Positions 2,741-60,256 of a stretch of DNA of 64,000 nucleotides are shown one piece after another. Below the pieces are notes generated by a model. That model did no database searches. It saw only the letters and a program-made list of their open reading frames with translations, and was not told the origin of the DNA. Positions within the stretch are counted from its first letter, which is position 1. Each line of letters begins with the position of its first letter. A program made the translations under genes and the position numbers. This DNA is from Stackebrandtia endophytica (lineage in GTDB: Bacteria; Actinomycetota; Actinomycetes; Mycobacteriales; Micromonosporaceae). The stretch spans positions 5,518,001 to 5,582,000 of the forward strand of contig NZ_VFOW01000001.1 of assembly GCF_006716355.1 (NCBI RefSeq), in the 5' to 3' direction.

Positions 2741-3454
2741 ATGGGACGATTCGAGCGTCTCGACCGCGCCCGCCCGACGGTGGTGTCCGATCCGGGCTGG
2801 CTGCGGGCGCTGGTCTGGTTGGGATTCCCGTTCGCCGGAGCGATGCTCGTGTGGTTCGCCGGTCAACTGGTGGGGTTGTCGTCCGGTGAGGCGCCGAGGC
2901 CGTTGGCCGTCGTGGTCACCGCCTTTCTGGCGATCCCCGAACCGGCCAGGATCGGCGGTGCGGCCGTCATCGGCGCATTTCTGGGCGCCGGCCTGTCGTT
3001 TCTGGCGCAGTCGGAGAGTCTGACCGTGGTGGTCTCAGCCCGGGACGTGCGGATCCGACGGGGGATCAGCGGTGAACTCCGGATACCCGCCACCGAGGTG
3101 GCCGCGGTGTTCGCCGACGGCACCGATCTGGTGGTACAGGACGCCGCGGGGATGGAACCGGCGCGCGAACGACACGACCTGGCGGTGGGCAGGTTGCGGC
3201 GGGCCTTTCTGGAACACGGGTATCGGTGGAGCGACGACGGCGACCCCCACGCCGGCGACTTCCGTCGATGGTTCGACGGCACGCCCGAACTGCCCGAGCG
3301 GATCAATCGCCTCCTGCGTGATCGTGCCACCGCCTTGCGTCGCTGGACCAACGACCGTTCCGACGCCATCGCCGGGCAACTGCGCACATCGGGTGTCATC
3401 GTCCGCGATCACGACGATGCGCAGTACTGGCGAAAACAGGCCGAACCGCTGTAG
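2741..3454 (+). CDS. YqeB-like membrane protein
   Basis: 237-residue protein. The start at 2741 gives MGRFERLDR; the open frame extends much further upstream, but that part is antisense to the esterase gene. Two hydrophobic segments lie at about residues 25-45 and 65-90, followed by a soluble region resembling a PH-like domain (DVRIRRGISGELRIPATEV) and a basic C-terminal tail. This layout recalls the YqeB family of Gram-positive membrane proteins, whose function is unknown. It converges on the LysR gene with only 3 bp between the stop codons. Family assignment is from memory of the pattern, not a search. Confidence 0.6.
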   Translation: MGRFERLDRARPTVVSDPGWLRALVWLGFPFAGAMLVWFAGQLVGLSSGEAPRPLAVVVTAFLAIPEPARIGGAAVIGAFLGAGLSFLAQSESLTVVVSARDVRIRRGISGELRIPATEVAAVFADGTDLVVQDAAGMEPARERHDLAVGRLRRAFLEHGYRWSDDGDPHAGDFRRWFDGTPELPERINRLLRDRATALRRWTNDRSDAIAGQLRTSGVIVRDHDDAQYWRKQAEPL

Positions 3455-3457
3455 CCG

Positions 3458-4378
3458 CTACGACTCGATGCCGTCCTCGCGGCCGGCCCGCCGCAGGCCG
3501 TCGATCACCGCCTGGATCGTGGGACGATGGGAGCTGCCGCGCCGGGTCAACGCCACCACCTCACGGCCCACCGACGAGTCGGCGATGGACAGAACCACCG
3601 GTCCGGGTGAACCGGTCGTCGGCAACGCCGATTGCGGCAGCACCGTGACACCGTGCCCGGCGGCGACCAGCGCGTTGATGACCGTGTGGTCGGCCGAGCG
3701 GTGCATGATGTCGGGCTCGAACCCCGCTCGGCGGCACAACGACGGAACCAGCCTCCCGAAGTAGCTGTCCGGCTCACCGCTCACCCACGCGTCAGCGGCC
3801 AGTTCGGTGATCGACACCGGCTCCGTCGATCCTGCCAGCCGATGACCGGCTGGAACCACCAGTCGCACCGGGTCGCGGAAGAGGCGGGTCGCCACCAGTT
3901 GTTCCATCGGTCGCAAGGGTGTCGCCTCGTAACGCGGCACGACCGCGATGTCGACCTCCCCGGCGGGTAGCGCGATCAGTGCCTCCTCGGTGTTGAGACT
4001 TCGACACTCGACGCGAAGATTCGGATATCGCGACCGCAGCAGCGTCAACGCCCGCGGGACCACGGTGATGGCGGCCGTCTGAACCGCGGCCAGCCCGACG
4101 GTGCCCGACACCTCGCGACGAGCCCGTTCCACCACTGCGTCGGAACGTTCCACTTCGGCCAGAACCCGTTCCGCCTGGATCGCCAACGCCTCACCGGCCT
4201 CGGTCAGCCGAAGCCCTCGACCGACGCGTTCGGTCAACGGGACACCGAGGCGACGTTGCAGGCTCGCCAGTTGGTGGCTGGCCGCCGACCTGCTCAACCG
4301 CAGCGACTCGGCCGCCGCGGTCAGGGTGCCGCGCAGCCGCAACTGGTGCAGCAGGGCCAACGACGACAACGACAACAT
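3458..4378 (-). CDS. LysR-type transcriptional regulator
   Basis: 306 residues with an N-terminal winged helix-turn-helix (LALLHQLRLRGTLTAAAESL, then SRSAASHQLASLQRRLGVPL) and a type 2 periplasmic-binding-like effector domain from about residue 90. I place the start at 4378 (MLSLSSLALL), the normal LysR N-terminus; the 34 residues available further upstream do not look like protein. It is divergent from the PLP enzyme at 4479 with a 100-bp shared promoter region, the classic LysR arrangement, so the PLP gene is its likely target. The effector is unknown. Confidence 0.9.
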   Translation of the reverse strand: MLSLSSLALLHQLRLRGTLTAAAESLRLSRSAASHQLASLQRRLGVPLTERVGRGLRLTEAGEALAIQAERVLAEVERSDAVVERARREVSGTVGLAAVQTAAITVVPRALTLLRSRYPNLRVECRSLNTEEALIALPAGEVDIAVVPRYEATPLRPMEQLVATRLFRDPVRLVVPAGHRLAGSTEPVSITELAADAWVSGEPDSYFGRLVPSLCRRAGFEPDIMHRSADHTVINALVAAGHGVTVLPQSALPTTGSPGPVVLSIADSSVGREVVALTRRGSSHRPTIQAVIDGLRRAGREDGIES

Positions 4379-4478
4379 TGGTGAACTGTATCGAACGGTG
4401 ACCGGTGGAAAGTTGAGCTTGTCGCACCCACGAGTCGTTGTTTGACTGGTCGTAGTGCGAACTTCGAAGGGAATGAAC

Positions 4479-5699
4479 ATGACGACGGGTCTGCCCTACG
4501 CCTCCGGGGCGATACTGAGCGACACCTCCGACCACCTGCGCAAACTCAACCGTGCCTGGCAGCACATCGGCCGCCGCCGGGCCGCCGGCCTGCCGCTGTA
4601 CAACCTCAGCGGCCTGGAACGGGGCCTACCGCTGCCGTCGGACCTGGACGACTGGTTGCTGGATGACGAATGGGCCGGTGCCCTGTGTGTCGACCAGATC
4701 CGGCGACACGGTCTGGAGCACCTGGGCGGCGACGCCGACACCCATGACATCGCCGTCACCAACCGGTTGACCGCCGCATTGTTCGCCGCGGCCCAGGTGA
4801 TCGTGACGCCCGGTTCGACCGTTGTCGGGGTGTCACCGTCCTACAGTCACCCCGCGGTGGTCCGGGCGGTGCGGGACGCCGGTGGGCGCCTGGTCGAGAC
4901 CGTCGGCGCCGACGCCGGGATCAGCGCCATCGCCGAACACGACGACGTCTCGGTGGTGGTGGTGACCCGGCTCGCCGTCACCTACGACGCGTTGTCCACG
5001 TCGGACTTGCATCGCATCGTCGCGGCCGCCCATGACGCCGGGGCGCTGGTCCTCATCGACGACGCCGGAGGAGCCCGAGTCGGCCCGGCGATCCTCGACC
5101 AGCCCAAGACCCTTGAGTTCGGGGCCGATCTGGGCGCCACCGGATTGGACAAGTACGGCGTCAGCGGTCCCCGCGTCGGCTTGCTCGGCGGACGCACCGA
5201 CCTGGTCTCCAAGGCCAGGGCGCGGGCCTTCGAACTCGGTAGCGAGTGTCGACCGGTGCTTTACCCGGCGGTCGTTCGTAGTCTGTCGGAGTATCACCCG
5301 CAGCGGGTGCGTGACCTGGTCGAGTCGACGAAGGTCGTCGGTCGGCGACTGGCGGAGCGACTCGGCGACTGGGTGGAGGAGACGCCGTTCATCACCCGCC
5401 TCCCCGGAGAGGGGATTCTGGCCGAACTGCGCCGTCGCGGTGGTTCCTCGACGCCGATGGCTCCGATCGAGGCCACCGCCGCGCTGGCCATGCATCTGTT
5501 GTCGGAGTATGGATATCTGACCGTCCACTTCGCCGGGTTGCCGCCGGGAACCGATGCGCTGCTGGTGAAGTTCCTTCCCCCGGAGACCATCGAGGAGATC
5601 GGCGGACCCGACGCGTTCGCTCGGGCGGTGGACGAGTCGTTGACTGCCGTCGCCGATCGGATCGGTGACATCGAACAGGTTGAGGCCCTCATCCGGTGA
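4479..5699 (+). CDS. PLP-dependent fold-type I enzyme (SelA/DgaE-like)
   Basis: 406-residue PLP enzyme. The cofactor Asp is in LVLIDDAGGARV (about residues 192-203), and the Schiff-base Lys is probably in ATGLDKYGVSGPRVG (about residue 226). The overall pattern resembles the SelA/DgaE group (selenocysteine synthase-like lyases) more than classical aminotransferases. The start at 4479 has AGGG 7 nt upstream; MRTSKGMN at 4455 is an alternative. Divergently oriented from a LysR gene that probably controls it. Substrate unknown. Confidence 0.7.
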   Translation: MTTGLPYASGAILSDTSDHLRKLNRAWQHIGRRRAAGLPLYNLSGLERGLPLPSDLDDWLLDDEWAGALCVDQIRRHGLEHLGGDADTHDIAVTNRLTAALFAAAQVIVTPGSTVVGVSPSYSHPAVVRAVRDAGGRLVETVGADAGISAIAEHDDVSVVVVTRLAVTYDALSTSDLHRIVAAAHDAGALVLIDDAGGARVGPAILDQPKTLEFGADLGATGLDKYGVSGPRVGLLGGRTDLVSKARARAFELGSECRPVLYPAVVRSLSEYHPQRVRDLVESTKVVGRRLAERLGDWVEETPFITRLPGEGILAELRRRGGSSTPMAPIEATAALAMHLLSEYGYLTVHFAGLPPGTDALLVKFLPPETIEEIGGPDAFARAVDESLTAVADRIGDIEQVEALIR

Positions 5700-5704
5700 T
5701 CCTC

Positions 5705-5734
5705 CGTGCCCGACTCGGCGACGGGTCGGGCACG
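5705..5734. terminator. Bidirectional terminator between convergent genes
   Basis: A perfect 10-bp inverted repeat, CGTGCCCGAC / GTCGGGCACG, with a 10-nt loop fills the 42-bp gap between the convergent PLP-enzyme and metallo-hydrolase genes. No strong T-tract follows on either side, which is common in high-GC actinomycetes. Confidence 0.75.
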
Positions 5735-5741
5735 ACCTCGT

Positions 5742-6392
5742 TCACCAGCCGCGCTCGCGCCACTGCGCCAGCTGCGGACGTTCGGATCCCAGGGTGGTGT
5801 CGTCACCGTGGCCGGGATGAATCACGGTGTCGTCGGGAAACCGGTCGAACAGTTTGGTGACGACATCGTTGAACAGACTGGTGAAATCGTCGGGATTGGT
5901 CGTGCGGCCGACACCTCCGGGGAACAGACTGTCCCCTGTGAACACGTGATCCGGTCCATCTGGATTGGACAAATGGAGTGCGATACCGCCCGGTGTGTGC
6001 CCCACCAGATGAATGACCTTCAGTGATATTCCGCCGACCGTTATCGTGTCGCCGTCGGCGACGGTCTCGGTGACTACCGGAATCGCTGCGGCGTCGTCGG
6101 CGTGTGCCAGCGACCTGGCGCCGCCGGCCTCCACCACGGCCTTGAGTGCCCCCACGTGATCTCCGTGTCGATGAGTGGTAACCACTGTGGACAAGGCTGC
6201 CGCGTCGGCATTCGCCAGGATCCGGTCGGGTGAGTCGGCGGCATCGATCAGCAACTGTCCACCGGTGTCGCGGCACCTCAGCAGATACACGTTGTTGTCC
6301 ATGCCGCCGACGGAGAACTTAGTCAGGTCGACGCCGGGAATCGTGAGCGTGGCGGCCGGTCCGTCGGGTGTCACATGTGGGAAAGAGTTCAT
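5742..6392 (-). CDS. Metallo-beta-lactamase-fold hydrolase (glyoxalase II-like)
   Basis: 216 residues. The metal site THRHGDH lies at about residue 71, with downstream ligands in GHTPGG, FTGDSLF and HPGHG, the normal order of a two-metal MBL hydrolase. I chose the start at 6392 (MNSFPHVTPDG); the upstream extension is Arg-rich and unlike protein. Such enzymes hydrolyse thioesters or related bonds, but the specific substrate is not evident. Convergent with the PLP enzyme. Confidence 0.85.
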   Translation of the reverse strand: MNSFPHVTPDGPAATLTIPGVDLTKFSVGGMDNNVYLLRCRDTGGQLLIDAADSPDRILANADAAALSTVVTTHRHGDHVGALKAVVEAGGARSLAHADDAAAIPVVTETVADGDTITVGGISLKVIHLVGHTPGGIALHLSNPDGPDHVFTGDSLFPGGVGRTTNPDDFTSLFNDVVTKLFDRFPDDTVIHPGHGDDTTLGSERPQLAQWRERGW

Positions 6393-6677
6393 ACCGCTCA
6401 ACACCTGTCTGATCGTGGGATGGTGACGGCGGGTTCTAGGTCGCCGTTCGGCGGTGCGCCGCGGAGCACCGAACCTCACCCGACGCGGGTCGCGTCGAAT
6501 CCGCCGCCAACCGCCCCGTCGCTCAACCCGTGGGGGCGTTGAGGCGTGCGCTCAACCCGCTAGATCGGGTCGAGTAGGTGAAACCGGCTTGCCCGAAACC
6601 CTGACACAGCTTAGCCTCATAGGCGTCATCACCCGGATGACGACATGCTCGGTGGGACCCGAAGGGAGGTGGCTTGT

Positions 6678-6773
6678 ATGCCGCAGTTTGCCCCCACGGC
6701 GGGGCGATGTCCTGTCGGCCGCATCGGTATATCCGTCATGGCCACCGAACCAGTGCTGGTCTCCACTCCCTGA
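6678..6773 (+). CDS. Possible 31-residue small ORF upstream of rsgA
   Basis: In the 417-bp gap between the MBL gene and rsgA, an ATG at 6678 follows a good ribosome binding site (GGGAGG, spacer about 8 nt) and opens a 31-codon frame with residues MPQFAPTAGRCPVG near its start. It ends 36 bp before rsgA. I do not recognise it. The rest of the gap shows nothing else I can name. Confidence 0.3.
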   Translation: MPQFAPTAGRCPVGRIGISVMATEPVLVSTP

Positions 6774-6809
6774 GGTCACGGCACTGCATCACTGAGAAAA
6801 GGTGTCAAG

Positions 6810-7895
6810 TTGACCACGTCATTGGCGTCCCTTGGCTGGGACGCGAAGTTCGAAGCCGCGTATCAACGTTTTGATCGTCGCGGGAACCGGCCCGGCCGGA
6901 TCGCCCGAGTCGACCGGGGCGTGTGCACGGTGCTGACCGCCACCGGCACGATTCGCGCCAGTCTCGCCGGCCGCATGTTGGGTTTGATCGCCAAGGATCC
7001 ACTGGCGATGCCGAGCGTCGGCGACTGGGCGGCGATTCGGCGCTGGGACGACGACCGCTACACCATCGAGGCGGTCCTGCCCCGACGCAGTGCGATCGTG
7101 CGGATGACGGCCGGAAAGGCCGCCGAGGGCCAGGCCATCGCCGCCAACGCCGACACCGTCGCCGTCGTCGAATCCCTCGACCCGGACCCCGATCCGGGAC
7201 GCATCGAGAGATTGATGGCATTGGCGCATGAGTCGGGTGCGACGCCACTGTTGTTGCTGACCAAGGCCGACACCGTCGCCGACCTCGACCTGCTGATCGC
7301 CGATCTGACGACCGCCGCGCCGCCGGGAACCGAGGTCCTGGCTGTCAGCTCACACACCGGCCTCGGCCTGGACCGGTTGCGGGAGTACGTGGCCGAGGGG
7401 CGAACGCTGGCGTTGATCGGAGCCTCCGGCGCCGGAAAGTCCACTTTGGTGAACACTGTGGTCGGTGCCGACGTCATGGCCACCCGCCGACTGCGGGCCG
7501 ACGGGCGCGGTCGACACACCACGTCATACCGCGCGATGGTCCCGATCCCCGGCGGGGGAGTCATCTTGGACACGCCGGGGCTGCGAGCGGTTGGACTGTT
7601 CGATCGCCGCCCCGGCGACTCCGCCACCCCCGTCGACGGACTGGCCAAGGCGTTCGAGGATCTCGAACGGTTGGCGGCGTCCTGCCGCTTCACCGACTGC
7701 CGACACGAGGCCGAACCCGACTGCGCCGTTCAGGCGGCGGTCGAGATCGGGGACCTGACCGTCCGCCGACTGGAAAACTGGCGAAAACTGCAACGCGAAC
7801 AGTCCCGGGAACGTGCTCGTGTCTCCGCCCGCACCAAGCAGGGACGCAAGATGTTGGCGATTCACGGCCGTCGATCCCGCAACACCTGGGAGTGA
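6810..7895 (+). CDS. rsgA: Ribosome small-subunit-dependent GTPase RsgA
   Basis: 361-residue circularly permuted GTPase that helps 30S maturation. Domain order: N-terminal OB fold (about residues 30-105), then G4 TKAD (about 151), G1 GASGAGKST (about 206-214), G3 DTPG, and a C-terminal zinc motif (CRFTDCRHEAEPDC). The permuted order G4-G1-G3 defines the family. Translation starts at TTG 6810, with AAAGG about 7-8 nt upstream. Transcribed alone or with the small ORF at 6678. Confidence 0.95.
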   Translation: MTTSLASLGWDAKFEAAYQRFDRRGNRPGRIARVDRGVCTVLTATGTIRASLAGRMLGLIAKDPLAMPSVGDWAAIRRWDDDRYTIEAVLPRRSAIVRMTAGKAAEGQAIAANADTVAVVESLDPDPDPGRIERLMALAHESGATPLLLLTKADTVADLDLLIADLTTAAPPGTEVLAVSSHTGLGLDRLREYVAEGRTLALIGASGAGKSTLVNTVVGADVMATRRLRADGRGRHTTSYRAMVPIPGGGVILDTPGLRAVGLFDRRPGDSATPVDGLAKAFEDLERLAASCRFTDCRHEAEPDCAVQAAVEIGDLTVRRLENWRKLQREQSRERARVSARTKQGRKMLAIHGRRSRNTWE

Positions 7896-49635: not shown

Positions 49636-51063
49636 TCAGGCGCTGGCGGCGCGGGAGACGGCGGCTTGGGCGTTGCCGTCGGCCGTCACCTGCTGCGCCG
49701 AGTGGCGGTCGGACCACCACTTCCGGCCTGCCTCCGGCAACGTGTCGATCGGGTCGTAGTACGGGTACTCCCGCTGCAATGCCTCCGCATCGTCCATCTC
49801 GATGGAGGTCCGGTAGTTCTTGGTCCAGTAGGAGATTCCCCGCTCCTGGTCGTAGCGACCCAGCTGGTGCACCCAACGCTTTCCGACGAACGGCACGTCG
49901 CAGATGATGCGCGGCGTGGCATAGCCGGGCAGGTAACCCATGATGGCCGTCTGCAGGTCCTGGGCGGCAGCGACCGAGGTGCGCCAGTGTTCCGAGTTGG
50001 GGATCATGTCGCACATGTAGAAGTAGTACGGCAGGATGTTCGCCTCACCCTGCAGTGCGAAGCACAGGTCGAGCAGGTCCGCGGCGGTGTCGTTGACCCC
50101 GCGCATCAGCACTCCCTGATTGCGGACGTCGCGGACTCCGGCGTCCAACATGGCCGCCGCGGCGCGAGCCACCGTCGGCGTCAGTGACTGGACGTGGTTG
50201 ACGTGGGTGTGGATCGCGAGGTTGACACCCCGGTCACGGGCCGTCTTGGCGATGCGCCCCATCCCGTCCACGACGTCGGCCTGCAACCAGTGCTGCGGCA
50301 GACCCATGAGCGCCTTGGTCGCCAACCGGATGTCGCGGATCGTCTCGATGTCGAGCAGACGCGCCAGGAAGTTCTCCAGGTTCTTCCACGGCACGTTGGC
50401 CACGTCGCCGCCGGAGACGACGACGTCGCGGACCCCCGGATGTTCCTGGAGGTAGGAGATCATGTTGTCGTACCGGGCGGTCGGCTTGAGCTTGAGCTTG
50501 AGCTTGTCCACGGTGGGGGTGGAGTTGCCCACCAGGTCCATGCGGGTGCAGTGACCGCAGTACTGCGGGCAGGTCGACAGCAGCTCGGCGAGCACCTTGG
50601 TCGGGTAGCGGTGGGTGAGTCCCTCGGCGACCCACATGTCGTGCTCGTGGAGCGAGTCGCGAGTCGCATACGGGTGGGACGGCCAGTCGGTGCGCCGGTC
50701 CGACAGCACCGGCAGCATGTACCGCCGAATCGGGTCGGAGTAGTAGGCATCGGTCCACGACCCGGCGGCGGTGTCGGTCAGGGTCGGAGCCATCGTGTTG
50801 AGCATCTGCGGCGGCAGCAGCATGGACATCGTGGCGCGCTGCTCGCCGTCGGCGGCGAGGTCCTCGTAGAAGCGTTCGTCAACGCGATCGCCGAGCACCT
50901 TGCGCAACTGGTTGACGTTCTTCACGCAGTTGACGCGCTGCCACTGGGCGCTGGCCCAGTCGGCGTCGCTGACATCGGCCCAGCCGGGAAAACGGCGCCA
51001 ATCCGGTTCGACCAACTCGGCGCGAGCGTATTCATACGGTTGTCCGGTCTGAACAGTCGCCAT
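49636..51063 (-). CDS. kamA: Lysine 2,3-aminomutase (radical SAM, PLP)
   Basis: 475 residues; converts L-lysine to L-beta-lysine. Radical SAM triad TCPQYCGHCTRMD (CxxxCxxC, about residues 160-168), VRDVVVSGGDVANVPW (SAM-binding GGD), IHTHVNHVQSLTP and the PLP region with GVLMRGVNDTA. Near residue 185 an alternating KLKLKLKP, encoded by a 6-bp tandem repeat, is unusual. Start 51063 (MATVQTG) has AAGGTGG upstream. Divergent from kdd, with an inverted repeat between. Confidence 0.95.
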   Translation of the reverse strand: MATVQTGQPYEYARAELVEPDWRRFPGWADVSDADWASAQWQRVNCVKNVNQLRKVLGDRVDERFYEDLAADGEQRATMSMLLPPQMLNTMAPTLTDTAAGSWTDAYYSDPIRRYMLPVLSDRRTDWPSHPYATRDSLHEHDMWVAEGLTHRYPTKVLAELLSTCPQYCGHCTRMDLVGNSTPTVDKLKLKLKPTARYDNMISYLQEHPGVRDVVVSGGDVANVPWKNLENFLARLLDIETIRDIRLATKALMGLPQHWLQADVVDGMGRIAKTARDRGVNLAIHTHVNHVQSLTPTVARAAAAMLDAGVRDVRNQGVLMRGVNDTAADLLDLCFALQGEANILPYYFYMCDMIPNSEHWRTSVAAAQDLQTAIMGYLPGYATPRIICDVPFVGKRWVHQLGRYDQERGISYWTKNYRTSIEMDDAEALQREYPYYDPIDTLPEAGRKWWSDRHSAQQVTADGNAQAAVSRAASA

Positions 51064-51133
51064 GGTGCCACCTTCGCTAGATTTCACGGCCTGGGCGGAA
51101 GAATAGCGTAAGTCTTCCAGGTGTCAAGCTACC

Positions 51134-51165
51134 TTACCGAAGGATTTTCGGCTATCCTCCGATAA
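51134..51165. promoter_or_regulatory. Imperfect inverted repeat between kamA and kdd
   Basis: TTACCGAAGGAT and ATCCTCCGATAA form a 12-bp dyad with two mismatches and 8-nt spacer, in the centre-right of the 126-bp divergent promoter. A smaller GGAAGA / TCTTCC dyad lies at ~51100-51115. Good candidate operator controlling lysine catabolism in both directions. Confidence 0.5.
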
Positions 51166-51189
51166 ACGTCAATCAGTTCGGAGCTTGTC

Positions 51190-52248
51190 ATGTCTGCCGC
51201 GCCTTTGTCCCCGATCGGGCTTCATCGGGTCGTCAGCCCGCCGGGAGTTCTGCCGCAGGCGGCGACCCGCCTCGACGCCGACCCCACCCCGGGCCGTGAC
51301 GAGGTGCTCATCCGGGTGCAACGGCTGAACCTCGACGCCGCCTCATACCGTCAACTGCACACCGCCCACGACGGCGACGGCACCGCCATCCGGGACGCGG
51401 TCGCCGGGATAATCACCGAGCGCGGCAAGATGCACAACCCGGTCACCGGCTCCGGCGGAATGCTCATCGGCACCGTCGAGGCGGTCGGACCCGACTCCCC
51501 GCTGGGACTGGCGGTGGGCGACCGCGTCGCCACCCTGGTATCTCTGACCCTGACCCCGCTGCGCATCACCGACGGCCTCGCCGACTGGGACGGACTGTCG
51601 GAACAGGTGCCCTGCGACGGGCACGCGGTCCTGTTCGCCCGCTCGATCGCCGCACGACTTCCCGACAATGAGTCGGACGAACTCGCGTTGGCCGTCTTCG
51701 ACGTATGTGGCGCGCCCGCATTGACCTCACGCATCGTTCGGCGCCACCGCACCCTCACCGGACAATCGCCCACGGTCGCGGTTCTGGGTGCGGCCGGAAA
51801 GAGCGGCAGCCTGTCGTTGGCCGCAGCCCGTGACGGCGACGCCGCCCAGACCATCGCGCTCGTCCGGGACGACGCCGAGGCGGGGTTGATTCGTGAGGCC
51901 AAGTTGGCCGATCACGTCGCCGTCGCCGACGCCACCAACGCGGTCGCCACCGCCGAAGCGGTCACCGCGGCAACCGGTTCCGGCGCCGACATCACCGTGG
52001 TGTGCGTGGACGTCCCCGGCTGCGAACACGGCGCCATCCTGTCCACCGCCCAGGGTGGCACCATCATCTTCTTCTCCATGGCCACCTCCTTTCCCGCTGC
52101 CGCGTTGGGCGCGGAGGGGCTGGCCGCCGACGTCGAGATGATCATCGGCAACGGTTACACCCCCGGCCACGCCGATTACGCGCTCTCCCTGTTGTCGACC
52201 GTTCCCTCGATCCGCTCGATGTTCGAAGCCAGGTTGGCGGCAGACTAG
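51190..52248 (+). CDS. kdd: L-erythro-3,5-diaminohexanoate dehydrogenase
   Basis: 352 residues. Kdd oxidises 3,5-diaminohexanoate to 3-keto-5-aminohexanoate with NAD(P). A Rossmann motif VAVLGAAGKSGSLSLAAARD (about residue 196-215) and the N-terminal HRVVSPPGVLPQAATRLDAD are typical of the family. First gene of the kdd-amidohydrolase-kamD-kamE-[rloAB]-kal-mutL unit. Confidence 0.9.
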   Translation: MSAAPLSPIGLHRVVSPPGVLPQAATRLDADPTPGRDEVLIRVQRLNLDAASYRQLHTAHDGDGTAIRDAVAGIITERGKMHNPVTGSGGMLIGTVEAVGPDSPLGLAVGDRVATLVSLTLTPLRITDGLADWDGLSEQVPCDGHAVLFARSIAARLPDNESDELALAVFDVCGAPALTSRIVRRHRTLTGQSPTVAVLGAAGKSGSLSLAAARDGDAAQTIALVRDDAEAGLIREAKLADHVAVADATNAVATAEAVTAATGSGADITVVCVDVPGCEHGAILSTAQGGTIIFFSMATSFPAAALGAEGLAADVEMIIGNGYTPGHADYALSLLSTVPSIRSMFEARLAAD

Positions 52249-52398
52249 AGCCGGTCTGGTAGATCCAGACGGGTTCCCATCGACGTGAGTGGGTTGTAGG
52301 TGGCAGAGGCGTCAAGTCCGGTGGCGGCCCCGGTGGCTGCGCATGGATTCGCGTCGAACCATCCTCGACACACGATGATCAGACAGGCTTAAGGCACC

Positions 52399-53937
52399 AT
52401 GACTGACAAGACCACCCTGTATCGCAACGGACACGTTCTCAGTCCGGCCTTCCCCGCCGCCACCGCGCTGGCGGTGACCGGGACCAAGATCAGTTGGCTG
52501 GGCGTCGACGCCGACGCACCCTCCTGCGACGAGACCGTCGATCTGGCCGGGCGCCTCGTGACTCCCGCGTTCGTCGACTCGCACGCCCACGTCACCGGTA
52601 CCGGCAGTTCGTTGTCGGGCCTGAACCTGTCGCGGGTCAAGAACGCCACCGAGTTGCTGGACGCCGTGTCGGCTGCCGCCGAGAAACTGCCGCGCACCGC
52701 GATCGTGATCGGGGCCGGATGGGACGAGACCGAATGGGACGATCCGCGCCTGCCCACCCGTGAAGAGGTGACCCGGGCCGTCGACGGTCGTCGGGCATAC
52801 CTGTCACGCACCTGCGGGCACACCGGGATCGCTTCGGCGGCGCTGTTGTTGGAGCGCCCCGAACTCTCCGAAATGGAGGGTTACCACGAGACCGGCGTCC
52901 TCACCCTCTACGCGCACCGCCACGCACGCACCGCGGCGTCGGCGGCGATTCCGGAGACGCAGCGCACCGACTGGCAGCGTGCCGCGCTGCGGCGGGCGGC
53001 CGAACTGGGAATCGCCGCGATCGTGGAATGCGGTATGCCCTCCGACGGATCGGGTGGTGGCGAGGCCGACTTCACCGGTCTGCTGGCACTGGCCGATGCC
53101 GAGTCACTGCCCCGGGTCTACGGCTACTGGGGCGAGTTGGCCGCCGCCGGCAAGGCCCGTGAACTGGGTGCCCACGCGTGTGCGGGCGACCTGTCGGTGG
53201 ACGGATCGATCGGCGCGCACACCGCCGCGCTACGCGACCCTTACTCCGACGCCGACACCTCCGGCCACGCCTACCTGTCGGCGGAGGACGTCGAGCAGCA
53301 CATCATCAACTGCGCCGGATACGGCATGCAGGGCGGTTTCCACGCCATCGGCGACCAGGCCATCCAGAACGTGATCACCGGTGTCGCCGCGGCGGCCCAG
53401 ACCCTGGGGTTGGAGACGGTGCGCGCCGGACGCCACCGCGTCGAGCACGCCGAGATGCTGGACAAGTCGTTGATCGCCGGGTTCGTCACCTTCGGGTTGT
53501 ACGCCAGCGTCCAGCCGTCGTTCGACGCCCGTTGGGGCGGTGCCGACGCCATGTACGCCACTCGGTTGGGAACCGAGCGCGCGATGGCCTCCAACCCGTT
53601 CGGCTCGCTGGCCGGTGTCGGTGTGCCATTGGCCCTGGGGTCGGACTCCCCGGTGACACCGTTGGATCCGTGGGGCGGTGTGGCGGCGGCGGTCAACCAC
53701 CGCAACCCCGTCCAGGGACTGTCACCGACGGCGGCCTTCGCGGCGCACACCCGCGGCGGCTGGCGCGCCCTCGGTGACGACAGCGCTGGCGTTCTGGTGC
53801 CGGGCAGCCCCGCCACCCTCGCGGTGTGGGACCGGACCGAGGCGGGACTTCCCGATCTGTCGGGTGACGCGCCCCTGCCAACCTGCCGTCGTACCGTGCT
53901 CGACGGTGAAACCATCTTCGACGAGGAGAATCAGTAA
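52399..53937 (+). CDS. YtcJ-like amidohydrolase of the kam cluster
   Basis: 512-residue metal-dependent hydrolase. VTPAFVDSHAHVTG carries the first metal His pair (about residue 60), GGFHAIGDQA a later ligand, RHRVEHAEML another, and LGSDSPVTPLDPW the final Asp. The form matches the YtcJ group of amidohydrolases. Its role in lysine breakdown is unclear; it may deacylate or hydrolyse an intermediate or a related amide. Shares one base (TAATG) with kamD, so it is tightly coupled. Confidence 0.75.
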   Translation: MTDKTTLYRNGHVLSPAFPAATALAVTGTKISWLGVDADAPSCDETVDLAGRLVTPAFVDSHAHVTGTGSSLSGLNLSRVKNATELLDAVSAAAEKLPRTAIVIGAGWDETEWDDPRLPTREEVTRAVDGRRAYLSRTCGHTGIASAALLLERPELSEMEGYHETGVLTLYAHRHARTAASAAIPETQRTDWQRAALRRAAELGIAAIVECGMPSDGSGGGEADFTGLLALADAESLPRVYGYWGELAAAGKARELGAHACAGDLSVDGSIGAHTAALRDPYSDADTSGHAYLSAEDVEQHIINCAGYGMQGGFHAIGDQAIQNVITGVAAAAQTLGLETVRAGRHRVEHAEMLDKSLIAGFVTFGLYASVQPSFDARWGGADAMYATRLGTERAMASNPFGSLAGVGVPLALGSDSPVTPLDPWGGVAAAVNHRNPVQGLSPTAAFAAHTRGGWRALGDDSAGVLVPGSPATLAVWDRTEAGLPDLSGDAPLPTCRRTVLDGETIFDEENQ

Positions 53938-55511
53938 TGACCCAACCGGCTCGGCTGCCATTGGACGCCGAACTCATCGCCCGTGCTCGCCGGCTGGCAC
54001 AGCGGGCCGGTCAACCGGTGGTCGATCTGGCCACCAGCCACACCACGGTGGCCGTGGAACGCGCGATGCTGCGGTTGGCGGGACTGTCGGGTGCCGACCC
54101 GGACGGCATTCCGTGGGTGAACCGGTTGCTGGATGCGGTGCGCTCCGATGTGGGCATCGCCCACGGTGCCGCACTCCCGGTGTTCCATTCGCTGTTGAGC
54201 GAAGGACACCAGGATCTGACCCTGTTGGCGCACAAGGCGGCGGCCGGGGCGGTCACCTTCACCATGCCCACCGGAGCCGAAGCCGACGCGGCGCGGGAGG
54301 CGTCCCGCTCGGCGGTGGCCGGCGGGCTGGCACGAGTCGACGCCGGTCGGCTCGAACGTGACCGGATGGTTGGTGAGATCGGTGACCCGCCACAGCGCCC
54401 CTGGATCTACCTGATCGTCGCCACCGGTGACATCTACGAGGACATCCCGCAGGCGCAAGCCGCCGCGCGGGCCGGGGCCGACGTCATCGCGGTGATCCGT
54501 TCGACAGGACAGTCTCTTCTGGACTATGTTCCGGAGGGCGCCACCCGAGAGGGATTCGCCGGAACCTATGCCACCGGCGAGAACTTCCGCCTCATGCGGG
54601 CCGCACTCGACGAGACCTCCCGCGAACTGGGCCGCTACGTCCGGCTGTGCAACTACGCCTCCGGCCTGTGCATGCCCGAGATCGCGGCGCTGGCCGGAAT
54701 GCACCGGCTGGACATGATGCTCAACGACTCGATGTACGGCATCCTGTTCCGCGACATCAACCCGATCCGCACCTTCGTCGACCAGCGCCTGTCCCGCCAG
54801 ATCCACGCGCGGGCCGGAATCATCATCAACACCGGTGAGGACAACTACCTCACCACCGCCGACGCCGTCGAAGCCGCGCACACCGTCACGGTCTCGCAGT
54901 TGCTGAACGAGTTCTTCGCCCACGAGGCCGGACTACCCGATCAGTTGTTGGGCCTGGGACACGCCTTCGAGATCAATCCCGATCTGACGGACTCGTTCCG
55001 GATGGAACTGGCCCACGCCATGCTGGCGCGGCAGCTGTTCCCCGACTGCCCGTTGAAGTGGATGCCGCCGACCCGTCACATGACCGGCGACGTCTTCAAG
55101 GGCAACCTCCTGGACGGTTTCTTCAACCTCGCCGGTGCCATGACCGGGCAGGGAATCCTGTTGGTGGGCATGATGACCGAGGCCGTGGTGACGCCGTGGC
55201 TGTCCGACCGTGACATCGCGTTGCAGAACGTCCGGTACGTGCTCAACGCGTGCGGCGGGTTGGTCGAGGACTTCCATCCGCCGGCCGACGGCTTCATCGC
55301 GCGGCGGGCTCAGCAGGTTCTCGGCGAGGCGGTGGAACTGCTGGAGAAGATCGTCGACGACGGGCTGCTCCGCGCGATCGGAGAGGGCACCTTCGGCATC
55401 ATGAAACGCCCCGCCGACGCCGGACGAGGCCTGGACGGCGTGGAGAAACACGCCGAGGACTACTACAACCCCGCCAGCGACCTGTTGGAGAACTCCTCCG
55501 GCGAGGAGTGA
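53937..55511 (+). CDS. kamD: Beta-lysine 5,6-aminomutase alpha subunit
   Basis: 524 residues; large subunit of the B12- and PLP-dependent 5,6-aminomutase that moves the terminal amino group of beta-lysine. Recognisable: GADVIAVIRSTGQSLLDYVP, ATREGFAGTYATGENFRLMR, and the C-terminal barrel with KWMPPTRHMTGDVFKGNLLD. Length matches clostridial KamD. ATG shares a base with the previous stop. Confidence 0.94.
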   Translation: MTQPARLPLDAELIARARRLAQRAGQPVVDLATSHTTVAVERAMLRLAGLSGADPDGIPWVNRLLDAVRSDVGIAHGAALPVFHSLLSEGHQDLTLLAHKAAAGAVTFTMPTGAEADAAREASRSAVAGGLARVDAGRLERDRMVGEIGDPPQRPWIYLIVATGDIYEDIPQAQAAARAGADVIAVIRSTGQSLLDYVPEGATREGFAGTYATGENFRLMRAALDETSRELGRYVRLCNYASGLCMPEIAALAGMHRLDMMLNDSMYGILFRDINPIRTFVDQRLSRQIHARAGIIINTGEDNYLTTADAVEAAHTVTVSQLLNEFFAHEAGLPDQLLGLGHAFEINPDLTDSFRMELAHAMLARQLFPDCPLKWMPPTRHMTGDVFKGNLLDGFFNLAGAMTGQGILLVGMMTEAVVTPWLSDRDIALQNVRYVLNACGGLVEDFHPPADGFIARRAQQVLGEAVELLEKIVDDGLLRAIGEGTFGIMKRPADAGRGLDGVEKHAEDYYNPASDLLENSSGEE

Positions 55512-55531
55512 CACCACCGTCACGGGAGGAC

Positions 55532-55597
55532 CATCGAAAACCACCCTCCACCCGGGTGTGGAGACTCGTCGAATCGACCATGGAGAAACCACGATGA
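55532..55597 (+). pseudogene. Fossil 3' end of an rloB gene at the kamD-kamE junction
   Basis: The core 55550-55590 matches the last part of rloB (58343-58384) with 4 mismatches and one 1-bp indel over ~42 bp. It reads PPSTRVWRLVESTMEKPR then stop, versus rloB's NPSTGVWRLVESIMEETRG then stop: same frame, same final motif. Its TGA overlaps the kamE ATG, and it supplies the kamE ribosome binding site (GGAG). Not a gene now; probably a relic of a former rloB. Confidence 0.65.
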
Positions 55598-56340
55598 GCA
55601 ACATCATTCGGCCTTACGGCGACACCACCGGAGACGGCATGGTGCAGCTGTCGTTCACGCTTCCGATACCGCACGACAAACGGTCGGAGGGTGCCGCCGC
55701 GCAACTGGCGGGAAAGATGGGCCTCGATCCGGTGATGGTGGTCCACGCCAGCCAGATCGGTACGTCGCACACCTTCTTCGTCGTGTACGGCAAGGCCAAT
55801 CACCTGGTCAACCTCGACGACGTCAACGTCGTCGAACGCGACTACCCGCTGTTGACCTCCAAGGAGGTCAACTCGCTGGTGAAGGAACGGCTGGGACGCA
55901 AGCTCGTCGTGGTGGGCGCGTGCATCGGAACCGACGCCCACACCGTGGGAATCGACGCGATCCTCAACATCAAGGGATTCGCGGGGGAGAAGGGTCTGGA
56001 GTACTACCGCGAGCTGAAGGTGCTGAACCTCGGCGCCCAGGTCGCGGTACCGGATCTGGTCAACCGGGCGATCGCGGAGAAGGCCGACGCGGTCCTGGTC
56101 AGCCAGGTCGTCACCCAACGCGACGCCCACCTCCACAACACCCGGGAACTGTCGGCGGCCTTCCGTGAGGCGCTGTCGCCGCAGGATCGACCCCTGTTGA
56201 TCATCGGCGGCCCCCGGTTCGACGAGACCATGGCCGACGAACTGGGGGTCGACCAGATCTTCAGCCGGGGAACCACCCCCGCCGATGTCGCCTCATACAT
56301 CACTCATCGGCTCGTCAGTAGTAAGGAACTCGTCTCATGA
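55594..56340 (+). CDS. kamE: Beta-lysine 5,6-aminomutase beta subunit (B12-binding)
   Basis: 248 residues. Cobalamin motif DAHTVGIDAILNIKG (DxHxxG, about residue 112) and a Rossmann-like B12 fold; N-terminal PYGDTTGDGMVQLSFTLPIP. Partner of KamD. The last 55 bp (ASYITHRLVSSKELVS stop) are repeated exactly after the rloAB cassette. Its stop is followed at once by the cassette's left-end hairpin. Confidence 0.94.
   Translation: MSNIIRPYGDTTGDGMVQLSFTLPIPHDKRSEGAAAQLAGKMGLDPVMVVHASQIGTSHTFFVVYGKANHLVNLDDVNVVERDYPLLTSKEVNSLVKERLGRKLVVVGACIGTDAHTVGIDAILNIKGFAGEKGLEYYRELKVLNLGAQVAVPDLVNRAIAEKADAVLVSQVVTQRDAHLHNTRELSAAFREALSPQDRPLLIIGGPRFDETMADELGVDQIFSRGTTPADVASYITHRLVSSKELVS
56286..56340 (+). repeat. 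55-bp direct repeat, left copy (kamE 3' end)
   Basis: Identical over 55 bp to 58422-58476. Contains the last 18 codons of kamE. Flanks the rloA-rloB cassette together with the right copy. Confidence 0.98.
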
Positions 56341-56373
56341 TTCGAGGCGCTTACTGACGGTGGGCGCCTCGAA
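56341..56373. terminator. Inverted repeat at the cassette's left boundary
   Basis: TTCGAGGCGC / GCGCCTCGAA, perfect 10-bp stem with a 13-nt loop, starting on the base after the 55-bp repeat and the kamE stop. May terminate upstream transcription or mark the cassette end. Confidence 0.6.
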
Positions 56374-56400
56374 ACTGCTGTTCATGCTAGATTTCAGGGT

Positions 56401-56427
56401 GATTCGCGCAGATTTTCTGCGTGAATC
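56401..56427. promoter_or_regulatory. Inverted repeat upstream of rloA
   Basis: GATTCGCGCAGA ttt TCTGCGTGAATC, a 12-bp stem with a single G-T mismatch, 29 bp before the rloA start. Candidate operator or hairpin controlling the defence genes. Confidence 0.5.
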
Positions 56428-56455
56428 AAGGTCTGACCTACGGTGAGGAGGGGCG

Positions 56456-57796
56456 GTGCTGCTGAGCTTTCGAGTGGCGAACCATCGGTCGCTGCGGGAG
56501 GAACAGGAACTCAACCTGCGCCCCGTCTACGACAAGGTTGAGACGGCACTTCCCGTCGCCGCGATCTACGGCGGCAACGCCGCTGGGAAGTCCAACCTGC
56601 TGGACGCGTTCCGGTACATGCGGGAGATGGTGCGTCCCGGGCGGGCTTTTCGTCCGGAGGAGGTGCCGTTTCGAACACCGTTTCGCCTCGATCCGTCGGC
56701 ATCCACCGAGGAATCTTCCTACGTGGTGGATCTTCGGTTGGGCGACGTCCTGTACAACTACGGTTTCGCCGTCGATGACGAGCAGGTAACCGAAGAATGG
56801 CTGTTCGCATATCCGCAGGGGCGGAAACGGCTGCTGTTCGAACGATCGGAATCCGGCGTCTCCGTCGGATCAGGAGTGCAGGGTTGGCGGGCCTTGCAAA
56901 CTCTGGCGAACAAGACGCAGCCGGATCGGCTGGTTCTGTCGGGAGTTGCCCAGTTCAAGGCTCCGGAATGGGAACCGGTGGCGAGTTGGTTCAAATCGGG
57001 GCTGTCGGTTCCTCGTCTAACGGGCTCCGTGTCTTCGGCGGCTACAGCATTCGAACAGCACCCCGAGCTAGCAGGGCTGTTGAGTGTTGCGGACGTCGGC
57101 ATCCGTGAAGTTATCGTGGAGGAGCGCGCCCTGGCGTGGCCAAAGGTGAACGACCAAAATCTGGCGCTGCTACAAACGGAGATAGCGGATCAGCGTTTGA
57201 TAGAGGCTGAGCGCCGCATTGGCGAAGAATCAGCCGGAGGTTCTGCAGAGCAAGAGTCGATTGCCCTTCAACGAATTAAAGAACACTTCTCTGCGATCCT
57301 CGCTCGTACTACTGGCTATCACCTCCTCTTCTACCACAACCGAAGCGCCGCACCACTTTCGTTGGATGAGCAGTCCGACGGGACCGTCAGGTTCATCCAC
57401 TTCATGGCCGAGGTCTTGGACGCCCTGAAACAGGGCAAAACCCTTCTCGTCGACGAGATCGAGGCCAGCCTGCATCCCCGACTGTTGTTCCGGGTGATCG
57501 AGCTGTTCCGGGATGAGCGAACCAACACCGGTGGCGGTCAGCTGGTTTTCACCACCCATGACACCTCCCTGTTGGGCACTAGCTTCGGTGAACCGGTGCT
57601 CCACCGTGACGAGGTCTGGTTCACCGAGAAGGACGAGAACGGCCAGACCAAACTCTTCCCGTTGAGCGAGTTCAAACCCCGCAAGGGGGAGAACGCGGAA
57701 CGGCGCTACCTCGGCGGCAGTTATGGCGCGGTCCCCGCCGTGTTCCCCGATTCGTTGGTGGACGCCGTGTTGGCGGCTCGCGAGGCATCGGAATAG
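56456..57796 (+). CDS. rloA: RloA/AbiLi-like AAA ATPase
   Basis: 446 residues of the AAA15/OLD-like ATPase class. Walker A AAIYGGNAAGKSNLLDAF (about 36-53), the ABC-like signature LSLDEQSDGTVRF, Walker B TLLVDEIEASLHPRL and a His switch FTTHDTSLL. RloA-type ATPases pair with RloB in AbiL-like phage defence. GTG 56456 follows GAGGAGGGG. The middle (57100-57340) is visibly poorer in GC and richer in A than the neighbours, suggesting transfer. Not part of lysine metabolism. Confidence 0.85.
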   Translation: MLLSFRVANHRSLREEQELNLRPVYDKVETALPVAAIYGGNAAGKSNLLDAFRYMREMVRPGRAFRPEEVPFRTPFRLDPSASTEESSYVVDLRLGDVLYNYGFAVDDEQVTEEWLFAYPQGRKRLLFERSESGVSVGSGVQGWRALQTLANKTQPDRLVLSGVAQFKAPEWEPVASWFKSGLSVPRLTGSVSSAATAFEQHPELAGLLSVADVGIREVIVEERALAWPKVNDQNLALLQTEIADQRLIEAERRIGEESAGGSAEQESIALQRIKEHFSAILARTTGYHLLFYHNRSAAPLSLDEQSDGTVRFIHFMAEVLDALKQGKTLLVDEIEASLHPRLLFRVIELFRDERTNTGGGQLVFTTHDTSLLGTSFGEPVLHRDEVWFTEKDENGQTKLFPLSEFKPRKGENAERRYLGGSYGAVPAVFPDSLVDAVLAAREASE

Positions 57797-58393
57797 ATGG
57801 CGCGCAGGGGAGCCGGCCGTCGCCGGTCACGTCAACCGACCCGACTGACCCATCGGCGGCTGTTGGTGGTGTGCGGCGGTCAGGTGACGGAACCGCAGTA
57901 CTTCCAGGGACTTCGTGATTTCGTCGGAAACCGGGGCGTGCACGTCAAAGTCGTCATCGAGGATCGTTCGCCGCACTACATCGTCAAGAAGGCGGCGGAG
58001 AGCCTGAAGACCGACGACTTCGATCAGGTCTGGTGTGTCTTCGATGTCGATGATTTCGACTGCACGGCGGCGCTCACCGAGGCGAGGCGACGTGGCGTGA
58101 ACATCGCGATGTCCCATCCGTGCTTCGACCTGTGGCTTCTGCTTCACTTCGAGGACTGCCTGACGCATGTCGACGGATATCAGGCGATCAAACCCAGGCT
58201 TCGCCGTCACATCCCGGACTACGGAACCTCGAAGTCCGGCAAGTCCGTTGACTTCGCGATGTACCGGGACCGAATCAGTCACGCGCTTCGTCGTGCGAAG
58301 GACCTGGACCAGAACCACGAGCGACCACATGCGAACCCCTCGACCGGGGTGTGGCGACTCGTCGAGTCGATCATGGAGGAAACCCGTGGCTGA
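57797..58393 (+). CDS. rloB: RloB/AbiLii-like protein
   Basis: 198 residues. RloB landmarks: LLVVCGGQVTEPQYFQGLRD near the N-terminus, VWCVFDVDDFDC in the middle and SHPCFDLWLLLHFED, the S-P-C-F-[ED]-W-L-L-L-H-F motif. The C-terminus NPSTGVWRLVESIM is the usual family tail. In the first motif the residue often Glu in relatives (VCEG) is Gly here, which may matter for the TOPRIM-like site. Begins directly after the rloA stop (TAGATG). Predicted effector of the AbiL-like pair. Confidence 0.82.
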   Translation: MARRGAGRRRSRQPTRLTHRRLLVVCGGQVTEPQYFQGLRDFVGNRGVHVKVVIEDRSPHYIVKKAAESLKTDDFDQVWCVFDVDDFDCTAALTEARRRGVNIAMSHPCFDLWLLLHFEDCLTHVDGYQAIKPRLRRHIPDYGTSKSGKSVDFAMYRDRISHALRRAKDLDQNHERPHANPSTGVWRLVESIMEETRG

Positions 58394-58476
58394 CTCGTTT
58401 CGCACCAACCGAGGCACCCCCTGTCGCCTCATACATCACTCATCGGCTCGTCAGTAGTAAGGAACTCGTCTCATGA
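58386..58476 (+). pseudogene. Internally deleted kamE remnant after rloB
   Basis: From GTG 58386 the sequence reads VADSFRTNRGTP, aligned positionally with the KamE start MSNIIRPYGDTT after an 88%-identical upstream stretch. It then jumps to the exact 55-bp 3' end of kamE but out of frame (stop TAG near 58455). CACCCCC just before the junction also matches kamE (56274-56280). Similarity of the first 12 codons alone is only about half, so the 5' part is a suggestion. Confidence 0.5.
58422..58476 (+). repeat. 55-bp direct repeat, right copy
   Basis: Exact copy of the kamE 3' end (56286-56340). It provides kal with its ribosome binding site (AAGGAA) and ATG, recreating the original kamE-kal ATGA overlap. 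Confidence 0.98.
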
Positions 58477-58874
58477 CTCAGGCAAGTCGGGCCACCGAAG
58501 GCTTCAGCGTCACCCATCGGCGTTATGTCTCCTACGACCACGCCCACTATGCGGGCAACCTCGTCGACGGTGCCTACTCGCTGGCGATGTTCGGCGACGT
58601 CGCCACCGAACTGTGCATCCAGACCGACTCCGACGAGGGTCTGTTCGCGTCCTATTCGGATGTCCAGTTCAAGGCGCCGGTGCGCGCCGGCGACGTAGTG
58701 GAGGCCACCGCGGTCATCACCCGGGTGGGAACCCGCAGCCGCACCGTGGACTTCACGCTGTCGGTCGTGTGCCGTGGCCGCCCGGAGAACGGGGTGTCGG
58801 CCGCCGAAGTCCTTTCCGAACCGATCGTGGCCACCACGGCCACCGGAACCGTCGTGGTGCCGGTGACGTCGTGA
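58473..58874 (+). CDS. kal: 3-aminobutyryl-CoA ammonia-lyase
   Basis: 133-residue hot-dog-fold enzyme. RRYVSYDHAHYAGNLVDGAY, then FGDVATELCI and VQFKAPVRAGDVVEATAVI match Kal, which eliminates ammonia from 3-aminobutyryl-CoA to crotonyl-CoA. The start sits at the end of the right 55-bp repeat. Its GTGA stop overlap couples it to the reactivase gene. Confidence 0.9.
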   Translation: MTQASRATEGFSVTHRRYVSYDHAHYAGNLVDGAYSLAMFGDVATELCIQTDSDEGLFASYSDVQFKAPVRAGDVVEATAVITRVGTRSRTVDFTLSVVCRGRPENGVSAAEVLSEPIVATTATGTVVVPVTS

Positions 58875-60256
58875 CCGCCCTGTTGTGCGCCGATGTCGGC
58901 TCCACCTACACCAAGGTCGCCGCCATCGGCCCCGACGGCACCCTCTTGGCGGCCGCCAGCCACCACACGACCGCCGATACCGACGTTCTGGATGGCTTGT
59001 CGGCCGCCTGTGACGCCGCCACCGCGCAGCTTCCCGCCGACGTCGAGGTGGGGGAGCTGCGTGTCTGTTCATCGGCCGGCGGCGGACTGCGACTGGCGGT
59101 CATCGGGAACGAGCCACTGGTCACCGCGACCGCCGCGCATCGGGCCGGTCTGTCGGCCGGCGCCCGAGTCGTGCACATCGCCGCCGGAGTCATCGGGACG
59201 GCCGAACTGTCCGACCTGGCGCGGTCGCGGCCGGATGTGATTCTGCTCGCTGGAGGCACCGACGGCGGCGACGAGACCGTGGTGCGCGATCACGCCACCG
59301 TCCTTGCCCGGGGGTTCGCCGAGGATCCGCGTCTGCGCGTGCCGGTGGTCGTGGCGGCCAACAACGCCGCCGCCGGTGACATCGTCACCCAGCTGACCGC
59401 GGCCGGTGGGGTGGCTCAGCAGGTGGACAACGTGCTGCCGATCATCGGAACCCTGCAACCGGGACCGGCCAGGACCGCGTTGCGGGAGGTCTTCCTGCGG
59501 CACGTGATCGCCGGGAAACGGCTGTCCAGTTCGTCGCGTTTCGAGACGATGGTTCGCGCCGCCACCCCTGATGCGGTGTTGGCCGGGGTCGAACTGCTCG
59601 CCGACGGATCCGGCGGCGCGGATGCGGTCGCCGACCTCGTCGTGGTGGACGTCGGTGGCGCCACCACCGATGTCTACTCGGTGCTGACCCCCGATGCCGA
59701 GCTGACCGGGCCGCGACGCGAGGTCGCCGGTACCGCATGGCGTTCCCGGACCGTGGAGGGCGACTTGGGGCTGCGGCACACCGCAGCCGGCATCCTGGCC
59801 GCCGCCGTCGACGAACAGCTCATCACCCGGGAGTTCGAGGCGGAGCTGGCGCCGGCGGTCGCCTGGCGAACCGGCCGCCCGGATTGGCTGCCCGACAGCC
59901 CTCAGGAGACCGCGATCGACCTGAGGCTGACCGAGCTGGCGATCATGATCGCTCTGCGACGCCACGCCCGTGGAGAGCGCCTGGGAGGCCCGCAATCGCC
60001 GCTTCGCGGTGGCAAGGACCTCAGAGCGGTCCGACTGATCGTCGGGTCCGGTGGCGTGCTAAGAAACCACCCCGAAGCGGTCTCGGTGCTGCGTTCGGCG
60101 ACGGCCGCCGATACCGCCGGTGGATACCCTCTTCCGGAGGACCCAACGGCTGTCATCGATGTCTCCTATGTGTTGGCCGCGGCTGGACTGTTGGCCGATG
60201 AACATCCCCGAATCGCTCTTGACCTGCTGAAACGTAATCTCACGAGTCACAGCTGA
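58871..60256 (+). CDS. MutL/GlmL-type reactivase for the B12 mutase
   Basis: 461 residues, actin-like ATPase fold (ASKHA): CADVGSTYTKVAAIGPDG phosphate 1, VVVDVGGATTDVYSV phosphate 2 and VRLIVGSGGVLRNHPEAVSV adenosine. Homologues near glutamate mutase or lysine aminomutase genes (GlmL, KamB) likely reactivate the cobalamin enzyme. GTG start overlapping the kal stop. Last gene of the unit. Confidence 0.85.
   Translation: MTALLCADVGSTYTKVAAIGPDGTLLAAASHHTTADTDVLDGLSAACDAATAQLPADVEVGELRVCSSAGGGLRLAVIGNEPLVTATAAHRAGLSAGARVVHIAAGVIGTAELSDLARSRPDVILLAGGTDGGDETVVRDHATVLARGFAEDPRLRVPVVVAANNAAAGDIVTQLTAAGGVAQQVDNVLPIIGTLQPGPARTALREVFLRHVIAGKRLSSSSRFETMVRAATPDAVLAGVELLADGSGGADAVADLVVVDVGGATTDVYSVLTPDAELTGPRREVAGTAWRSRTVEGDLGLRHTAAGILAAAVDEQLITREFEAELAPAVAWRTGRPDWLPDSPQETAIDLRLTELAIMIALRRHARGERLGGPQSPLRGGKDLRAVRLIVGSGGVLRNHPEAVSVLRSATAADTAGGYPLPEDPTAVIDVSYVLAAAGLLADEHPRIALDLLKRNLTSHS

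Follow-up and report, generated by a model that had tools for sequence, protein, structure and literature searches.

AbiL is a bicistronic abortive-infection system, described as plasmid-encoded and as having a toxic effector of the TOPRIM_OLD type, and the same source relates RloB to OLD_TOPRIM (PMC10440598). In PARIS, an AAA ATPase and a Toprim-type nuclease are described as the products of separate genes (PMC10440598), and the nuclease, AriB, is reported to cleave tRNA (PMC12409363). Phages and satellites are reported to carry defence genes at hotspots (PMC9122126). Here we analyze an AbiL-type pair, rloA-rloB, of Stackebrandtia endophytica, which lies between kamE and kal inside the lysine-degradation (kam) operon. 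The DNA analyzed, referred to as the window, is the whole stretch of 64,000 nucleotides between positions 5,518,001 and 5,582,000 of contig NZ_VFOW01000001.1, and positions below count from its first letter. A prediction made from the sequence alone (the original prediction) had pointed to this pair and to the scars around it. We find that the space before kamE holds the fossil of an rloB 3' end, i.e., its last 17 codons.

As in AbiL of Lactococcus lactis (AbiLi/AbiLii, i.e., RloA/RloB), a gene for an AAA ATPase is followed by a gene for an RloB-domain protein, and the AbiLi and AbiLii profiles of PADLOC match the pair; unlike AbiL, however, the pair resides in a chromosomal metabolic operon. 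The separation of ATPase and effector into two genes is also that of PARIS (AriA/AriB), and rloA matched the AriA profile, albeit more weakly (7.4e-39). In contrast, RloB did not match the AriB profile, AbiLii being its sole PADLOC match at E (expect value) ≤ 0.001, and its predicted structure (predicted local distance difference test score, pLDDT, 77) gave no match in the PDB at E ≤ 0.001, but only weak, mixed ones. The window RloB, which ends in NPSTGVWRLVE, covers the Pfam RloB model completely (1-195 of 195), and its best stretch against the AbiLii profile corresponds to profile part 20-89 of 170. Because both genes are full-length open frames that resemble AbiL and PARIS, the pair should act as an abortive-infection system: RloA would sense infection, whereupon the presumed Toprim-like nuclease RloB would kill or stall the infected cell. 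As at the hotspots described for phages and satellites, a passenger cassette recurs in a fixed slot, although the slot is here a single junction within a catabolic operon.

The fossil lies in the 82-bp gap between kamD and kamE (Table 1). Positions 55544-55593 are 84% identical to the end of rloB (58337-58386) across 50 bp, with a local-alignment score of 34, when the maximum among 2000 shuffles was 16. In the reading frame of RloB, translation of the relic gives PSTRVWRLVESTMEK, compared with PSTGVWRLVESIMEE in the window rloB; six codons differ, three of them synonymously. Its stop codon, TGA, overlaps the ATG of kamE, and the GGAG ribosome-binding-like site of kamE falls within it. Among 137 rloB tails, some of them from truncated genes, the relic was closest to the window's own rloB (34, with 21 for the runner-up). 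The original prediction had seen about 42 bp at this junction that resembled the rloB end, in the RloB frame and with the same terminal motif, and the comparison bears this out. The motif is also typical of RloB homologues: NP[SATG][SAT] stands near the C-terminus in 119 of the 137 RloB rows, and a tighter pattern in 97 of them, truncated rows included.

The second scar is the exact 55-bp repeat of the kamE end on either side of the pair, which was found just as predicted. Positions 56286-56343 and 58422-58479 are 98% identical over 58 bp, the first 55 being identical and ending, in the first copy, at the kamE stop codon. The AAGGA ribosome-binding-like site of kal falls within the second copy, so that the duplication left kal with its own start signals. 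A surviving kamE 5' end after rloB, which had been thought possible, was rejected. The 34 nt at 58388-58421 scored at most 11 against the kamE starts of 111 kam rows (which include duplicate rows of genomes), a score reached by 10% of 200 shuffles; with the kamE of the window itself the score was 8, which 81% of 500 shuffles reached. The proposal of a second kamE that had kept its 5' end is thus not supported. The statement that no recombinase is present held for the nine proteins encoded at 49636-60253, the interval covered by our Pfam search, although two of the nine had no match of any kind.

Table 1. Features of the kam operon and of the inserted segment in the window
Feature	Position	Strand	Evidence or remark
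kamD, lysine 5,6-aminomutase alpha subunit	53937..55511	+	Pfam Lys-AminoMut_A 8.3e-242
Relic of rloB 3' end, reads PSTRVWRLVESTMEKPR	55544..55597	+	84% over 50 bp to window rloB end
kamE, lysine 5,6-aminomutase beta subunit	55594..56340	+	Pfam OAM_dimer 3.8e-31, B12-binding 2e-12
Repeat copy 1, kamE 3' end, finishing at stop codon	56286..56340	+	exact 55 bp
Inverted repeat, perfect 10-bp arms, left end of inserted segment	56341..56373	.	sequence; directly after kamE stop
Inverted repeat, some 28 nt 5' of rloA	56401..56427	+	sequence; roughly where many relatives have the GTGC-GGTTTACTT-GCAC motif
rloA, AbiLi-like AAA ATPase	56456..57796	+	PADLOC AbiLi 8.9e-87; Pfam AAA_21 1.2e-42
rloB, AbiLii-like, RloB family	57797..58393	+	Pfam RloB 3.1e-40; PADLOC AbiLii 4e-28
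Junction segment, right end of insert	58394..58421	.	kamE starts and window kamE gave no significant match
Repeat copy 2, kamE 3' end, now kal leader	58422..58476	+	exact 55 bp
kal, 4HBT-domain protein (gene name from the original prediction)	58473..58874	+	Pfam 4HBT 2.6e-06

RloB matches were present in 80 of 354 family genomes, and the surroundings of every listed place, some of which reach a contig end, were inspected for kam genes. The order kamD-rloA-rloB-kamE occurred in nine of these genomes, which belong to six genus codes, whereas kamE-rloAB-kal was found in the window alone among the family loci inspected. A scan of named genomes, from which 80 of 416 relatives were kept, added one metagenome-assembled genome (MAG) of Actinomycetota, of unstated family (L126), with the order kamD-rloAB-kamE; because only these 80 were kept, the count of kam-lodged copies from beyond the family is too low. 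We then had 98 kam operons with both kamD and kamE, one per genome (97 from the family, including the window, and the MAG). In ten of them (nine of 97 family genomes, and the MAG) rloAB stood at the kamD-kamE junction, where no other insert was seen. The ancestor with kamD-rloAB-kamE that had been postulated is supported by these ten genomes together with the relic.

In the remaining 88 genomes the kamD-kamE gap was 0 or less in 76 and 1-130 bp in 12, including the 82 bp of the window, which was the sole case with an RloB-like ending. The original prediction had named, as the observation that would speak against it, relatives without any rloAB that nevertheless carry both the 42-bp sequence before kamE and the 55-bp repeat. 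Neither the relic motif nor the kamE-end repeat turned up in the other 87 genomes that lack rloAB in the kam operon, this search having been confined to the 98 kam-operon genomes. The kamE-kal gap was at most 65 bp in the 97 other genomes, and the kamE end was repeated downstream in none of the 111 kam rows, within stretches of up to 3 kb that were often about 1.5 kb (the row for the window ends before its second copy).

In nine of the ten copies lodged between kamD and kamE, the stop codon of an RloB-type ending overlaps the kamE start in the same frame as the relic; in L126, rloB ends about 20-35 nt before the kamE start, with no overlap. In L035 rloB is frame-shifted near its end, and in L036 it is shortened internally, the middle being missing, yet both retain the tail and the overlap with kamE; both are draft genomes, in which sequencing error is possible. 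Both cassettes look as if they had decayed where they lie, and with them there is a series from intact through broken (L035 and L036) to relic only (the window). Long target-site repeats around the lodged copies were looked for and rejected, since none of the ten is flanked by an exact repeat of at least 12 bp; a single 11-mer was present in L031.

In three trees the RloAB copies from the kamD-kamE junction formed one clade, with support of 97 (8 rows, before L126 was included), 98 (9 rows) and 100/97 (9 rows). The first tree was made after dropping 8 of 67 rows. The second used 88 of 137 rows, the 49 dropped comprising rows that were broken or truncated, two with long branches and most of the remote free rows, and the third used 39 of those 88; L036 was omitted throughout, so that at most nine of the ten lodged copies were covered. 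By contrast, in a KamD plus KamE (KamDE) tree of 97 rows (14 of the 111 were dropped as duplicates of genomes), the ten carriers of rloAB were scattered: their label took 8 changes (7 forced), when shuffled labels took 9.7 on average. For the nine rows in common, the RloAB data rejected the KamDE topology (P value of the approximately unbiased test, p-AU, 1e-5), and the KamDE data rejected the RloAB topology (p-AU 0.02). A Mantel test showed no significant correlation between RloAB and KamDE distances (r 0.08, p 0.28), nor did it after removal of L126 (r 0.29, p 0.07). This conflict suggests, as the simplest reading of the sequences, that the cassette moves among kam operons, always into this one junction; a single ancestral cassette that was lost many times over would, taken alone, leave the conflict unaccounted for.

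The RloAB of the window is differently placed. Its partners are three free cassettes of the g11 (Glycomyces-type) group, with no kam genes within about 6 kb, and it groups with these (100/99), outside the kamD-kamE clade. Either two RloAB lineages have used the kamD-kamE slot, or the free relatives have left it. Given the place of the window RloAB outside the kamD-kamE clade, the ten genomes serve as precedents rather than as direct ancestors. Placing the window's whole clade beside the kam clade was not rejected (p-AU 0.303, 39 rows).

As an explanation of all these features, we lean towards a loss followed by an insertion. RloAB cassettes of the AbiL type lodge repeatedly at the kamD-kamE junction in this family, with an rloB end that mostly overlaps the kamE start and carries its ribosome-binding-like site. 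In the lineage of the window, the resident rloAB would have been deleted except for its last 17 rloB codons, which may have been kept because the start signals of kamE sit there; the second 55-bp copy may likewise have persisted because it starts kal. Later, a sibling rloAB would have inserted 3' of kamE; the duplication of the last 55 bp of kamE is observed, and the order of events is one we infer. The insertion probably took place by one-sided recombination, or by capture of a fragment, guided by incoming kam DNA. Two ages are favored over a single duplication because identity is 84% between the rloB tails but 100% between the kamE ends; by our own arithmetic, the chance of 55 unchanged sites at the divergence of the tails is about 0.84^55, i.e., near 7e-5.

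Several observations weigh against this reading. The scenario does not account for the 28-bp right junction, which matches nothing tested. The argument from age rests on short repeats, and constraint or gene conversion could equalize the 55-bp pair. That the relic was retained for the sake of kamE is something we infer from where its signals lie, and three synonymous changes out of six are too few to demonstrate coding divergence. The carrier label was slightly more clustered on the KamDE tree than expected by chance (18 of 500 shuffles were as low), and the KamDE tree of the nine rows is weakly resolved, with bootstraps of 43-69 apart from one of 100. The window RloAB lies outside the kamD-kamE clade, as described above, and forcing it into that clade gave a borderline result (p-AU 0.0506). 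Lastly, an intermediate from the lineage of the window itself was seen in none of the relatives; the four congeners have neither rloAB in the kam operon nor the relic.

The original prediction had proposed that the segment rloAB-kamE was duplicated or that a related allele recombined in. The second of these fits better. A tandem duplication of rloAB-kamE within one genome, with later deletion of the upstream rloAB and the greater part of the downstream kamE (or, equivalently, a move of kamE with a piece of rloB to a position upstream of rloA), would derive both repeats from one ancestor with no need of an outside donor, and rloB before kamE is known from other genomes. However, it requires three events, no 5' part of a second kamE was detected, and the two repeats should share one age, when in fact the tails are less alike than the kamE ends, as stated above; we regard it as unlikely. 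It is also rather improbable that a free cassette inserted after kamE with a 55-bp target duplication, the relic stemming from an unrelated earlier insertion that happens to be close by. The grouping of the window RloAB with free cassettes would agree with such an event, as would the resemblance of the flanking repeat to a target duplication. Yet the relic is nearest to this very rloB, and RloAB occurs in the kam operons of ten other genomes, which makes chance neighbors unlikely. That the relic is a chance or convergent kamE leader with no origin in rloB can hardly be maintained: a start codon preceded by a GGAG site is common to it and the rloB end, but none of 2000 shuffles reached its score, its frame, stop overlap and motif are those of real rloB ends, and the motif is absent from the 87 other kam operons without rloAB.

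A conserved motif, GTGC-GGTTTACTT-GCAC, was observed 22-69 nt 5' of rloA in 56 of 131 loci, among them free and kam-lodged actinobacterial RloAB loci, when about 0.01 occurrences per 100 nt would be expected by chance. The window is among the 75 loci without it and carries a different inverted repeat in its place. An RNA hairpin, the first reading of the motif, gained little support from covariation, which was weak in the flanking pairs (2 of the 16 with p ≤ 0.007); with covariation this weak, an operator and a leader hairpin both remain candidates. The 120-bp rloA leader of the window had no other good copy in its own genome, the next match being of 20 nt (E 0.09).

Elsewhere in the kam operons, gaps of 36-115 bp separate kamD from kamE in L002, L003, L005, L019, L030 and L050, all without rloAB, and these could be older scars. 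As relics of rloB, the 11 other positive gaps were rejected, the lowest uncorrected p being 0.013 (11 gaps × 11 tails). In L027 (G040; gap 0 or less), a single open frame, uninterrupted by a stop codon, holds both KamD and KamE, a possible fusion of the aminomutase subunits. In the groundwater MAG L126 the kamD-rloAB-kamE stretch lies at about 2914-7669, and its RloA is 46% like that of the window. In a phylum sample of 396 genomes there were six with a match at E ≤ 1e-20, and the five besides that of the window had no kam genes within about 1.5 kb on each side. Among 178 plasmid records, no close relative of RloA was found, all being below 60% identity.

RloAB (AbiL) is already known, but its recurrent lodging in the kam operon seems to be new: a literature search, which missed most subscription journals, found no description of RloAB in kam operons. 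More tentatively, and with some doubt on our part, the kamD-kamE junction may be a slot in which RloAB docks and which two or more RloAB lineages have used, recombination within the conserved kam flanks exchanging copies from one genus to another. Defence would then be co-translated with lysine catabolism and might cooperate with it, for example if RloB attacked a lysine-linked target, as AriB attacks tRNA. Such a link between RloAB and lysine catabolism is testable.

Searches for defence genes usually turn to islands and prophages, whereas the known type described here recurs at one junction of a metabolic operon and overlaps the gene that follows. In this slot the cassette appears to spread between genera, and to leave readable fossils when it is lost. 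Such fossils hint at how an operon may carry a passenger while the coupling of its genes persists, and they would allow past defence repertoires to be read.

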